IMG/VR virus record: IMGVR_UViG_3300042301_000626 | Coordinates: 1-29,174 of that record | Strand: one strand, 5' to 3' | Source of the DNA: a virus | DNA length: 29,174 bases | Shown: positions 7,917 through 11,637 of the stretch, one piece after another | Layout of the letters: each line of letters opens with the position of its first letter | Numbering within the stretch: position 1 is the stretch's first letter | Made by a program: the position numbers and the translations under genes | Notes under the pieces: generated by a model | Told to the model about the DNA's origin: nothing | Databases searched by the model: none | Seen by the model: only the letters and a program-made list of their open reading frames with translations

Positions 7917-7947
7917 CAAATATATTACTGAAATGCATATTTACCAA
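7917..7947 (-). promoter_or_regulatory. Bacteroidota-type promoter downstream of TerL
   Basis: On the minus strand, TTG (7947-7945) is followed after 20 bases by TATATTTG (7924-7917), matching the Flavobacterium-type consensus TTG-N(17-23)-TAnnTTTG. The -7 element begins within the TerL stop, and the first ATG is 18 bases beyond it, giving a short leader. It would drive the small-protein and MazG-like genes independently of the long leftward transcript. Confidence 0.6.
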
Positions 7948-9214
7948 AGTTTCTTTTTAATTCATAAAATGCCCTCATCATAATGGCATCAGCAAAGTCA
8001 GGACTTAAGCCGTGTCGCTTCTTTAAATCTTCTTTGTTCGTTACTCTTAACTTACCATCACTATCCAGTTTCTCGCGCCTTACCATTTCTAACTCTTTTA
8101 CGATTGTATCTTTGTGAGTAGGTTCAAATGTGATAAGGTTGTTGGTGATTAGTTCGCCAAGTTTAAAATAACAATCCGCTTTCAAGTTCATATAGTTATC
8201 GCGTACCGCTTTTGATCCGTTCAAGAATCCCTTGCAACGGATATAATCCACCGCACCACCACCAATACCATCTTCATCGACAAGCACGTTGGACAACTTC
8301 ACGTTATGCGTTCTTATCAACTCGTTACAAATTGTCACGGTTTCGTTAATCGGTTTGTGTTTTAGAACAATAAACTTTTCAGCGTGTAATCCATCCCAAA
8401 GTACAATCACCGTTCTATCGTCACCCATACGCGCAATATCGGCTGTGATGTATTTATCCCCTTTCGTTTGTTGTTCTCTAAAGCAACGCAATAAATCATC
8501 GTATTCGTATAAGCGGTCTTTGGTTTCATCGTAATCCCAATCACCCTCTAACAACCTTTTGCGGTCAATGTCGGGAAGTAGTTGTAACGATTCAAGATAC
8601 ACTGGAGAAATGTGTGGGTTATCCGTTGGTAATGCCTGTATAAAGTCGCGGTCTTTTCTAATTGTGTTATTTCTTTTGGCATCAAAGAACTCACTATATA
8701 GCCAACCTTTGTGAGGGTTGCAAGTAAGTAGAATTTTAGGCTTATCATCCACCAACTTATATCGCATACGTGAACTTAATATGTCAATACACTTTTGCGA
8801 TACTTCACCTGCCTCGTCTACGAATGCGTCAGTAATTTCAATCGAACCAAATCTTTGAAACTCGGTATCGGATGGCATATCTGCCAAGTCCATTAGTATC
8901 GTTTCGCTACCATTGTACCATTTAATTATGTGGTCTTGTCCGTTATAAGTGTAATGTTTGCCAGGTGCAAGTCCATACGATGCACAAAGTTCAAAGAACG
9001 TAGCCATTGTAGACAATCGCAACTTCTTTAATTCTGCACGACCAATCAAACCGCGTGTACCTGCGTACTTTAATCGTCTTTTTATTTGCCAATCGCAGCC
9101 AAGAAATGACTTCCCGCTTCCAGCAGATCCGCCATATAATAGCTGACGGATTCCACTATCTACTGAAAGCGCGTGTAAGGCTTCAATTTGTTTATCGTGG
9201 TATTGTATTTCCAT
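7925..9214 (-). CDS. terL: Terminase large subunit
   Basis: A 429-residue packaging motor. The ATPase domain has Walker A GGSAGSGKS (28-36), Walker B AFVDEAGEV (130-138) with catalytic Glu, and the coupling motif TCNP (164-167). The C-terminal RNase H-like nuclease domain has Asp in ITADIARMGDD (259), DEDGIGGG (313-320) and SPDFADA (404-410), giving the acidic metal-binding set. It cuts concatemers and pumps DNA through the portal. Unusually it lies in the leftward replication block, overlapping the methyltransferase gene by 23 bases, while the TerS-like gene, portal and all virion genes are on the other strand. This means it is probably transcribed with the replication genes. Confidence 0.95.
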   Translation of the reverse strand: MEIQYHDKQIEALHALSVDSGIRQLLYGGSAGSGKSFLGCDWQIKRRLKYAGTRGLIGRAELKKLRLSTMATFFELCASYGLAPGKHYTYNGQDHIIKWYNGSETILMDLADMPSDTEFQRFGSIEITDAFVDEAGEVSQKCIDILSSRMRYKLVDDKPKILLTCNPHKGWLYSEFFDAKRNNTIRKDRDFIQALPTDNPHISPVYLESLQLLPDIDRKRLLEGDWDYDETKDRLYEYDDLLRCFREQQTKGDKYITADIARMGDDRTVIVLWDGLHAEKFIVLKHKPINETVTICNELIRTHNVKLSNVLVDEDGIGGGAVDYIRCKGFLNGSKAVRDNYMNLKADCYFKLGELITNNLITFEPTHKDTIVKELEMVRREKLDSDGKLRVTNKEDLKKRHGLSPDFADAIMMRAFYELKRNFGKYAFQ

Positions 9215-10100
9215 CTAGTTCTTGAATTACTTTGAATATTTGATAAGCTACTTGTGGTACGATTGCATTTCCATAACCTTTTATAGATTCTTGTCGCCAC
9301 TTTGAAAAGGTAATTCCGTCCAATTCGGTGGGAAGCCCATCATCTCCGCTACAAATCGGGGATTGAGTTGGGAAATTTTGCCACTTATTGGAGATAAATC
9401 TGCCGCCATTTGTTTCAATGGGTATTGAAGATTCACTCCTTTTTTCAAATGCCTTTTCTTTCTGTTTTCGTATGTTTCTTGTTTCACTCCCGATTTGAAA
9501 TCGAATGCGCTCGGTGTTGGTAATAATCCCCTGCGTGCTAATATACTCAATTCGTTTATCTTGTGAAATTGACTTGGACTGTTCTCTTTGCATTTCGCAT
9601 CTTGACAAGTCGGTGTTGGTAGCAATGAACCAAACACGATCTCTTCGGTGTGGCGCACCGACACTTGCTGCTGCAAGTAATATCGGTTGTACTTCGTACC
9701 CACAATTTTCCAAGTCAGCGCACACTTCTTCGAAGACCACTCCCCCGTTCCAATTAGTGAGTCCACGAACATTTTCGCCCACAACGTAGGTTGGGTTAAT
9801 CTCTTGAATTGCTCGGAGCATATGCGGCCAGAGGTGGCGCTCGTCCTCTTTCCCAAGTCGCTTTCCTGCGGATGAGTATGGTTGGCAAGGGAATCCCCCT
9901 GTAAGGATGTCAATGTTTCCTCGGTGAATAGTGAAATCTGTTTTTGTGATGTCTTCATAACTTATTGAATTTGGAAAATGATAATGTAATACTTGTCGGG
10001 GAAAAGGCATCCATTCGCAATGAAACACGTTCTCCCACCCCATCCATTCGGCTGCTAAATCAAAGCCACCGATTCCGCTAAAGAGTGATCCGTGCCTCAT
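9192..10100 (-). CDS. DNA (cytosine-5) methyltransferase
   Basis: A 302-residue C5 methyltransferase with the motifs in canonical order: SAM-binding LFSGIGGFDLA (6-16), catalytic GGFPCQP with C72 (68-74), ENV (109-111), APHRRDRVWFIA (149-160), and GYGNAIVPQVA near the C-terminus. The target-recognition region between 160 and 270 is short, so specificity cannot be predicted. No restriction enzyme partner is seen, so this is an orphan phage methylase, probably shielding phage DNA from host restriction. It overlaps the upstream replication gene by four bases and TerL by 23. Remarkably, codons 48-273 are overlaid by another long same-strand frame (9281-9958). Confidence 0.93.
   Translation of the reverse strand: MRHGSLFSGIGGFDLAAEWMGWENVFHCEWMPFPRQVLHYHFPNSISYEDITKTDFTIHRGNIDILTGGFPCQPYSSAGKRLGKEDERHLWPHMLRAIQEINPTYVVGENVRGLTNWNGGVVFEEVCADLENCGYEVQPILLAAASVGAPHRRDRVWFIATNTDLSRCEMQREQSKSISQDKRIEYISTQGIITNTERIRFQIGSETRNIRKQKEKAFEKRSESSIPIETNGGRFISNKWQNFPTQSPICSGDDGLPTELDGITFSKWRQESIKGYGNAIVPQVAYQIFKVIQELDGNTIPR
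9281..9958 (-). CDS. Overlapping-frame protein inside the methyltransferase gene
   Basis: A 225-codon ATG frame, shifted by one base, lies entirely inside the methyltransferase gene. The other unexplained open frames I see in this window are about half as long or less. The product has an N-terminal Ser/Thr-rich stretch, SGRICSEQF (43-51), LWAKMF, CALTWKIVGTKYNR, LLPTPTCQDAK, a second LLPTPS motif, and a C-terminal LNPRFVAEMMGFPPNWTELPF-like ending. From memory, these elements in this order occur in proteins annotated near phage C5 methyltransferases in Bacteroidota, so I think it is a real dual-coded gene. There is no catalytic motif and no signal peptide. Its function is unknown; modulation of methylation or anti-restriction is speculation. 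Confidence 0.65.
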   Translation of the reverse strand: MKTSQKQISLFTEETLTSLQGDSLANHTHPQESDLGKRTSATSGRICSEQFKRLTQPTLWAKMFVDSLIGTGEWSSKKCALTWKIVGTKYNRYYLQQQVSVRHTEEIVFGSLLPTPTCQDAKCKENSPSQFHKINELSILARRGLLPTPSAFDFKSGVKQETYENRKKRHLKKGVNLQYPLKQMAADLSPISGKISQLNPRFVAEMMGFPPNWTELPFQSGDKNL

Positions 10101-10867
10101 AGTTTTTCTTTGATTCTTTGTTGCAATATATGACTATCCATAATATCAGCGTAAAGCAAACGCATTATCCCTTGTCTAACTTCCAAATCGAAATTCTCCT
10201 TTTCAATACGTTTCATATTCGTTACCGCGTAGTTGGACAATCCCTTTTCACTGCATAGGTTTTGGAACGACATAAATTTAAATTTCTTCCATTCGTCATC
10301 ACTCCAACAGTCGGGATGAATCGCGCCAAGTTCCTCGAACTTTCGCATCATTGATGGGGCTAACAACATAACCGCAACACGGTGTCCTTCCTTCCATCTT
10401 TTCAAATCACTTTCAAACATTGCTTTGAAATCAACTGGCGTATCGTCTATGGTTGTTGTACCAATGGACAACTTGGCTTTCTTTCTGTCAATGTCTAAAT
10501 TCATTTGCATCTTGTGGATTTTGTACGCGTTCAATACATCGGACAAAAACTGAATAGACATTAAGCCGTAATGTTCCACACGTTTCCAAGCCATTCCAAC
10601 TGCGTTAAGTTGGAACGCTAAACCTATTTCACCAATGGTAAAGAATCGGTAAAACTGTTGTGCGGTATCGTATAGCATCTGCGTTTCCTCTGGTGACGGA
10701 AGTTGTTTGATACCACTAATAACGATTCCCTTTGCGATTAGTGACTTAAACATAGGTAAGGTGGATTCGCATACCTTCGTTTGATTTAGTGCCTCTAAAT
10801 AGGCTCTTTCATCATTGGTCAAGCCACTGCTGTAATGCTGACCTTTGTACTCTACCAAGTTGCTCAT
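10097..10867 (-). CDS. Replication-block protein of unknown function
   Basis: A 256-residue, largely helical soluble protein. A central segment around AFQLNAVGMAWKRVEHYG (83-100), continuing into FLSDVLNAYKIHKMQMNLD, is typical of a phage/mobile-element family found next to GWKYGK-domain replication proteins, as I recall. There is no Walker or nuclease motif. It overlaps the gene before it by 56 bases and the methyltransferase start by four. Linking it to DNA replication (for example helicase loading) is an inference from position only. Confidence 0.6.
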   Translation of the reverse strand: MSNLVEYKGQHYSSGLTNDERAYLEALNQTKVCESTLPMFKSLIAKGIVISGIKQLPSPEETQMLYDTAQQFYRFFTIGEIGLAFQLNAVGMAWKRVEHYGLMSIQFLSDVLNAYKIHKMQMNLDIDRKKAKLSIGTTTIDDTPVDFKAMFESDLKRWKEGHRVAVMLLAPSMMRKFEELGAIHPDCWSDDEWKKFKFMSFQNLCSEKGLSNYAVTNMKRIEKENFDLEVRQGIMRLLYADIMDSHILQQRIKEKL

Positions 10868-11192
10868 TGTTGTTGTTTTTTATTGTTACAAATTTATTTA
10901 AATCCCAAGCGGATCTCATTGCCGCTTTCCAATCTTTCATCTTGTTCTTGCCGTATTTCCAACCTGTGTTAGTGTAATGGCTAATAAATACATCTGCAAA
11001 ATTAAGCGCATCTTCAGAAGACGCAAACGGAATTCTCTCCAAAAAATACTCCGCCACTTGTTCCGCTGTCGGGGGTTGAAATGTCGTCCGTGTTGTCTTT
11101 AAATTCAACGTGTGGGATTTCAAGAGGTCTTCGAGATACGCTACCCTTAAGGTGAGTAAGTATAGTTCGTCCTTTAGTTTTTCGTTTTCCAT
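10812..11192 (-). CDS. Replication-associated protein with C-terminal GWKYGK/MKDWKAA domain
   Basis: A 126-residue protein. An N-terminal coiled coil (1-35) is followed by a PPTAEQVAEYFLERI helix, FADVFISHYTNTGWKYGK and MKDWKAAMRSAWDL (about residues 40-97). This C-terminal module recurs at the end of phage and mobile-element replication initiators, where it probably binds DNA or a helicase. Here it stands alone, next to a DnaA-domain protein, as if a usual two-part initiator were split. A TAA lies immediately before ATG 11192 in this frame, so the start is firm, and the first 179 bases overlap the 3' end of the DnaA-like gene in another frame. The 3' end overlaps the next gene by 56 bases. 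Confidence 0.72.
   Translation of the reverse strand: MENEKLKDELYLLTLRVAYLEDLLKSHTLNLKTTRTTFQPPTAEQVAEYFLERIPFASSEDALNFADVFISHYTNTGWKYGKNKMKDWKAAMRSAWDLNKFVTIKNNNNEQLGRVQRSALQQWLDQ
10889..10896 (-). promoter_or_regulatory. TAnnTTTG -7 box candidate before 10867
   Basis: TAAATTTG on the minus strand lies 21 bases before the ATG of the 256-residue gene and inside the preceding one. No TTG at the right spacing is evident, so it is a weak candidate. Confidence 0.25.
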
Positions 11193-11637
11193 TTAGTTTA
11201 GTTTTTAATTCGTTGCAATTATAACCCATTTGCGCCATATACAAAAAAGAATCGTCAATAAATACTTGCGTTGACATATCGAACTGGTATAAATCAACCA
11301 TCTTCTTTAGCGAATGCAGAACCGTTGCGTGGTCTTGGTTTCTTATCGTCTTACCTATTTGAGATAAGGTCATTTTAGTTCCTGCATACAATAATAGATA
11401 TGCGTTTGCCCTTGCATCAACTATATGCCTTTCGCGTGAACGTGCGCATAGTTCCATATTTGTAATATCGTGCGATTTGCAAACTGCGCTAATTACATCT
11501 TTTTCGTATCCATCGAACTCGTCACCATTCTCAATTAACTCAATCAATTCGGTTTGGTATTCATTGGTGTATAGTTCAAGTAGTTCGTTTAAATTCCTAA
11601 CGCGGTACTTAATTATAAAGTCGTTTAATTTACTCAT
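11014..11637 (-). CDS. DnaA domain IV-like replication initiator
   Basis: A 207-residue protein. Residues 45-118 match the DNA-binding domain IV of DnaA: an RxRHIVDARANAY helix, an LSQIGKTIRNQ turn, and the signature DHATVLHSLKK (102-112). The AAA+ domain of cellular DnaA is absent, so it binds DNA but cannot assemble or melt DNA by ATP itself. It is probably the phage initiator or an origin-binding protein, or it could compete with host DnaA. The N-terminal 45 residues are acidic helices. The last 60 residues are low-complexity, ending in a Gly/Phe stretch, and are dual-coded with the next gene. The start overlaps the upstream stop by eight bases (ATGAGTAA). Confidence 0.8.
   Translation of the reverse strand: MSKLNDFIIKYRVRNLNELLELYTNEYQTELIELIENGDEFDGYEKDVISAVCKSHDITNMELCARSRERHIVDARANAYLLLYAGTKMTLSQIGKTIRNQDHATVLHSLKKMVDLYQFDMSTQVFIDDSFLYMAQMGYNCNELKTKLNGKRKTKGRTILTHLKGSVSRRPLEIPHVEFKDNTDDISTPDSGTSGGVFFGENSVCVF

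Follow-up and report, generated by a model that had tools for sequence, protein, structure and literature searches.

Organisation of the locus

The window, by which we mean the whole 29,174-nucleotide stretch analysed, is a 29-kb virus record; among bacterial genomes, the nearest relatives belong mainly to Bacteroidota. Its minus strand carries a C5 cytosine methyltransferase ORF, here termed alpha, and, lying entirely within it in the +1 frame, a second ORF, beta, that covers alpha codons 48–273 including motifs IV, VI and VIII. The original prediction had the coordinates, frame and length of this 225-codon ATG frame right; all five peptide motifs that it quoted are found in the beta product, and the other unassigned long frames of the window are, as it claimed, about half the length of beta. 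In the window the beta ATG is offset from the alpha start by 142 bases, and in relatives the offset is identical or close to this. The features are as follows, where A2 is an alignment of nested beta proteins and A3 an alignment of 58 alpha sequences.

9192..10100, minus strand: alpha, C5 cytosine methyltransferase ORF, 302 aa, motifs I–VIII and X (ORF call, PF00145, phrog_363, AF2)
9281..9958, minus strand: beta, nested +1 ORF, 225 aa, putative target-recognition/motif IX subunit (ORF call, phrog_1008 at 1.4e-23, in-register conservation, dN/dS)
9879..9899, minus strand: alpha motif IV, GGFPCQP, including the catalytic Cys (sequence; invariant in A3)
9768..9776, minus strand: alpha motif VI, ENV (sequence; invariant in A3)
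9633..9656, minus strand: alpha motif VIII, APHRRDRV (sequence; A149, H151, R153 and R155 invariant in A3)
9252..9278, minus strand: alpha motif X, GYGNAIVPQ, directly past the beta stop codon (sequence; near-invariant in A3)
9281..9614, minus strand: near-neutral spacer of alpha, equivalent to the beta-constrained region (close-pair dN/dS; low-confidence AF2 of alpha)
9656..9724, minus strand: hairpin of the beta N-half, CALTWKIVGTKYNRYYLQQQVSV, with conserved C, L, W, K and R (invariant or near-invariant columns of A2; AF2 strands 79–87 and 93–101)
9608..9625, minus strand: beta LLPTPT segment 1, candidate target-recognition region (A2 conservation; in frame in actinophage single-chain enzymes)
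9509..9526, minus strand: beta LLPTPS segment 2 (near-invariant L146, P147, T148 and P149 in A2)
9305..9382, minus strand: beta motif IX, GKISQLNPRFVAEMMGFPPNWTELPF (near-identical segment of the natural variant L363 aligned to M.HhaI 266–293; PF00145 covers the L363 segment)

Alpha is a member of the PF00145 C5 cytosine methyltransferase family (E 1.4e-48, profile positions 1–216 of 324), the match ending near 216, and it is assigned to phrog_363. Motifs I, IV (PCQ), VI (ENV), VIII and X are invariant or near-invariant across the 58 sequences. The AF2 model of alpha matches only the large domain of M.HhaI and M.HaeIII over about 168 alignment columns, and its middle is of low confidence. Alpha also overlaps the next ORF (7925–9214, which looks like a terminase large subunit) by 23 bases (9192–9214) and the upstream gene by 4 bases (10097–10100). 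Elsewhere in the window two minus-strand ORFs, 10812–11192, which matches phrog_15768, and 11014–11637, which has a DnaA C-terminal helix-turn-helix domain, overlap by 179 bases.

Recurrence of the nested frame

Synonymous-codon permutation of alpha (20,000 permutations, keeping the encoded methyltransferase and its codon usage constant) gave a longest +1 ORF of 76.6 ± 24.1 codons, placing the 225 codons of beta at a P of about 1e-4. Viral loci were then chosen by the alpha frame alone, which removes ascertainment by beta: beta with METHYLTRANSFERASE of the window type recurs in the +1 frame in 299 of these 301 loci, and the two exceptions are contigs cut within the gene. The +1 register was found in 86/86 loci of another locus set. 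The beta core is open in 415 of 418 non-redundant loci, a count in which redundancy was removed inside each set and two of the sets have contigs in common, and the remaining overlapping frame is open in about 0–2%. At four loci (L033, L046, L054 and L060) beta is open and the alpha frame is broken, reflecting either assembly error or real loss.

A tblastn search with beta returned 75 phage records at E ≤ 1e-3, with matches in Paenibacillus, Lacticaseibacillus, Bacteroides, Porphyromonas, Mycobacterium and Klebsiella phage records; at a looser threshold the matches were still nearly all methyltransferase genes. Motif and profile searching of 84,980 species genomes gave a best 80 beta loci of which 79 are nested in the +1 frame of a methyltransferase and one (L248) is frame-shifted, and no standalone beta was found among these best 80. 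Tracing homologues to their loci, as the original prediction had proposed, puts them inside methyltransferase genes in 79/80 of these genome loci. Its statement that proteins with these motifs are deposited beside phage C5 methyltransferases needs one correction, since the deposited relatives lie inside the methyltransferase gene. Paenibacillus phage Shelly g56, for example, is annotated 'g55 internal gene', and in Escherichia phage K1ind1 ORF28 lies within ORF29. Searching the literature for nested phage methyltransferase genes, we found no description.

Ordinary C5 methyltransferases served as a control. In 28 Bacteroidota genomes, 15 such enzymes had 3–26 stops per 200 +1 codons compared with 0–2 in 15 alphas, and the full beta was absent from those 15 ordinary enzymes. 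When compared with the beta profile, two ordinary methyltransferases matched weakly and in part, scoring 9.9 and 19.9 bits.

Selection along the overlap

Across 91 independent sequence pairs, the proportion of alpha fourfold-degenerate sites that had changed was 0.278 before the overlap and 0.272 after it, compared with 0.155 in the motif IV–VIII part of the overlap and 0.108 in its later part. Alpha-synonymous change within the overlap is thus about half of the outside level or less, which bears out the expectation of synonymous-site constraint. Since the third position of an alpha codon is the second position of a beta codon, selection on a second frame should leave just such suppression.

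Values of dN/dS were obtained from close pairs (90–98.5% identity) after sorting all possible changes according to what they do in each of the two frames. Over the motif IV–VIII part dN/dS was 0.15–0.18 for alpha and 0.33–0.38 for beta. Over the later part it was 0.12–0.19 for beta and 0.54–0.88 for alpha, where one of the two alpha estimates, 0.88, has an interval of 0.65–1.09 that spans 1. Beta is therefore under purifying selection of its own (0.12–0.38 by part). The opposite constraint profiles of the two frames amount to a swap of roles along the gene. The alpha frame is constrained over motifs I–VIII and X and is nearly neutral between them, where beta is strongly constrained, and the alpha spacer needs only to stay open as far as motif X.

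Initiation signals

In Paenibacillus-type loci, SD-like leaders (≤ −4 kcal/mol) precede 62% of beta starts and 60% of alpha starts, compared with 27% of random positions. In window-like (Bacteroidota-type) loci they precede 1% of beta starts versus 26% of random positions; here the beta leaders are AT-rich (0.69 vs 0.55), and alpha starts are likewise AT-rich and without SD. The start codon at the head of beta is conserved and is mostly ATG. These signals probably fit independent initiation of beta in each host group. Taken together, the recurrence in 299/301 loci, the two-frame dN/dS, the suppressed synonymous change, the control with ordinary methyltransferases and the start signals uphold the view of an old, selected dual-coding pair, and we regard dual coding at this locus as secure.

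Content of the nested protein

Beta had no family match in Pfam, NCBIfam or PADLOC, and its profile matched no PDB sequence. It is assigned to phrog_1008, which all 64 aligned nested proteins match; that family is labelled 'DNA methyltransferase', a label that gives neither subunit role nor overlap, whereas the nested proteins have no catalytic motifs. An AF2 model of beta alone reached a pLDDT of 59.9 and a pTM of 0.26, with strands at 79–87 and 93–101, and a structure search with this low-confidence model found no related fold.

The C-terminus of beta is more readily placed through natural variants in which the frames are joined. L363 carries alpha motifs I–VIII and the beta C-terminus in a single frame, and on this fusion PF00145 covers 1–294 of 324. 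In a phmmer comparison LTTGKTSQLNPRFVAEMMGFPPNWTELP of L363 was aligned to M.HhaI 266–293, LVNGKTRKLHPRECARVMGYPDSYKVHP, a segment that we take to be motif IX; the score of 7.5 bits is weak alone. The tail of the window beta is almost identical to the aligned L363 string; what makes the alignment persuasive is its order and context. L363 and two further loci, L300 and L362, have alpha motifs I–VIII, LLPTP and motif IX in frame without an in-frame motif X, and are either indel variants or cases of recoding.

A second line of comparison comes from actinophages. In 24/30 loci related to mycobacteriophage WillSterrel, a single frame holds motifs I–VIII together with LLPTP, motif IX and motif X. 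The profile built from these single-chain forms matches beta across LLPTP and motif IX (97.5%, E 5.8e-12) and alpha across motifs I–VIII (E 8.8e-49). In Arthrobacter phage Andrew (L092) and in L278 and L281, by comparison, all parts past motif VIII are located in the +1 gene. Leaving aside the actinophage group and the frame-fused L300, L362 and L363, no alpha in the viral or genome sets showed an in-frame motif IX signature. Judged by these motif arrangements, nested, partly overlapping and fused forms of one enzyme coexist, and the LLPTP segments of beta are a putative target-recognition region.

The N-half of beta consists of two helices and a hairpin in the low-confidence AF2 model and is conserved in nearly all forms. 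In actinophage loci L089 and L257–L286 it is kept as a +1 ORF of 130–190 aa, with target recognition, motif IX and motif X in the alpha frame. Given this persistence, a role for beta purely in target recognition and motif IX leaves the N-half unexplained.

Beta is extended in several loci. In Klebsiella phage BUCT541 (L090:1180–2565) it has no stop past motif IX and continues into an apparent HNH/endonuclease VII-like domain, a part that is separately annotated as a hypothetical protein (2110–2568). On a Rhodoplanes plasmid (L093:1471–3039) the beta frame continues stop-free into the gene that follows, which encodes a site-specific DNA methyltransferase. In Bacteroides phage BS-TP4 (L001:1841–3163) beta is enlarged by several repeated LLPTP-type segments, and alpha has matching extra length in its non-conserved stretch.

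A proposed two-chain enzyme and its alternatives

We propose that alpha (catalytic; motifs I–VIII and X) and the nested beta (target recognition; motif IX) would together form one heterodimeric C5 methyltransferase, a reading to which we give a probability of about 0.86. Alpha, read in the 0 frame, would contribute the catalytic large domain with motifs I–VIII, then a long unconstrained spacer and then motif X. Beta, read in the +1 frame from its own ATG, would contribute the small domain that has no counterpart in alpha, namely the LLPTP target-recognition region plus motif IX. The beta stop codon falls just ahead of motif X, where the alpha frame takes over again. One mRNA would thus yield two chains via independent initiation, and these would bind one another and assemble into an active enzyme that methylates its target site. 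For the phage, the likely role would be orphan methylation that shields its DNA from host restriction. Among the roles first suggested for the partner, modification of methyltransferase action came nearest, and the evidence favours a narrower reading, in which beta is the target-recognition/motif IX half that this enzyme is missing; counter-restriction or a role elsewhere found no support in this analysis.

The nested frame might be thought an echo of methyltransferase conservation and not a gene at all, in that the alpha motifs beneath the beta N-half are strongly conserved and the beta profile is weakly and partially matched by two ordinary methyltransferases. However, beta conservation is highest where alpha is near-neutral, alpha-synonymous change is suppressed inside the overlap only, the cores are open in 415/418 loci when ordinary enzymes have 3–26 stops, and actinophages have beta segments in frame as part of the enzyme. 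We give this reading next to no credence; a chance ORF or echo was rejected on the fourfold-site suppression, the two-frame dN/dS, the ordinary-methyltransferase control and the open cores.

The remaining alternatives accept a real gene product. Beta could have a separate function, as an inhibitor or regulator of the methyltransferase, an anti-restriction factor or something unrelated, and both the lack of a Pfam, NCBIfam or PADLOC match and the persistence of its N-half as an independent +1 ORF, in actinophages whose alpha frame holds target recognition and motif IX, would be in keeping with this. Yet none of the best 80 genome loci lies outside a methyltransferase gene, the beta C-terminus is the motif IX that alpha lacks, and beta segments are covalently joined to the enzyme in other phages, so that we consider a separate function unlikely. 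Less likely again is that only one chain is produced, by programmed frameshifting out of alpha into beta and a later return, in place of two separately initiated chains. Natural frame-fused versions exist (L300, L362, L363 and the actinophages), but the nested start codon is conserved (mostly ATG) and accompanied by initiation signals that fit the host group. Moreover, a shift past motif VIII would leave the conserved beta N-half over motifs IV–VIII untranslated, and reaching motif X requires a second shift back.

Beyond the two-chain enzyme itself, we tentatively suggest, at somewhat less than even odds, that it may be an ancient dual-coding enzyme, kept by selection and common to phages of several bacterial phyla, with catalysis in one frame and recognition in the other over the same DNA. 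The recognition half would have moved between frames, giving nested, partly overlapping and fused forms, and the beta N-half would be a distinct domain with its own role.

Relation to known methyltransferases

In M.EcoHK31I, as in M.EaeI, the large-chain gene contains the small-chain gene in a different reading frame. This nested layout matches that of the window and of the 415/418 loci. When M.EcoHK31I and M.EaeI were searched for, the E. coli, Citrobacter and Klebsiella loci examined proved to be phage-like regions, and none of them had a restriction endonuclease beside the gene. In the outline given in PMC3404938, M.EcoHK31I (Lee, Kam and Shaw 1995) is a two-polypeptide C5 methyltransferase for the site YGGCCR, with motifs I–VIII and X on its alpha chain and motif IX on its beta chain, so that the original statement that no function had been described does not hold for this kind of protein. 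The likeness, as far as the motif layout described there goes, is that the window alpha has motifs I–VIII and X without IX and the window beta has IX. The same source (PMC3404938) places the predicted target-recognition domain of M.EcoHK31I on the large chain; in contrast, constraint in the window suggests the small chain.

M.AquI is likewise outlined as a two-polypeptide C5 methyltransferase, naturally divided at a point between motif VIII and the enzyme's end (PMC3404938). Its small chain carries motifs IX and X, whereas in the window motif X (9252–9278) is on alpha past the beta stop and the small gene lies wholly within the large one. Loci that do resemble the M.AquI type are those of Arthrobacter phage Andrew (L092) and L278/L281. 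M.HhaI and M.HaeIII, with which alpha shares the large-domain fold and, in the case of M.HhaI, the beta tail aligns at motif IX, are single chains. When M.MpeI and M.SssI were artificially divided into the same two domains, no activity resulted (PMC5944983); pairs that occur in nature must therefore have become adapted to assembly.

Significance

The kind of enzyme is already known, being M.EcoHK31I-like; what is new is how widely it occurs in phages, along with the role swap measured here. The nested-beta arrangement is common in phages and is mostly without annotation, gene callers having missed beta in most of the records examined. Long nested same-strand genes are rare, and few have a clear partner function together with hundreds of natural replicates; here the role swap between frames along the overlap is directly measurable. 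For many 'DNA cytosine methyltransferase' genes of phages and prophages, the annotation gives a single protein that is probably unable to methylate alone, and cloning a recoded, codon-optimised version of the alpha frame only would destroy the enzyme. Moreover, identifying beta in such genes would aid the prediction of target sites for orphan phage methyltransferases.
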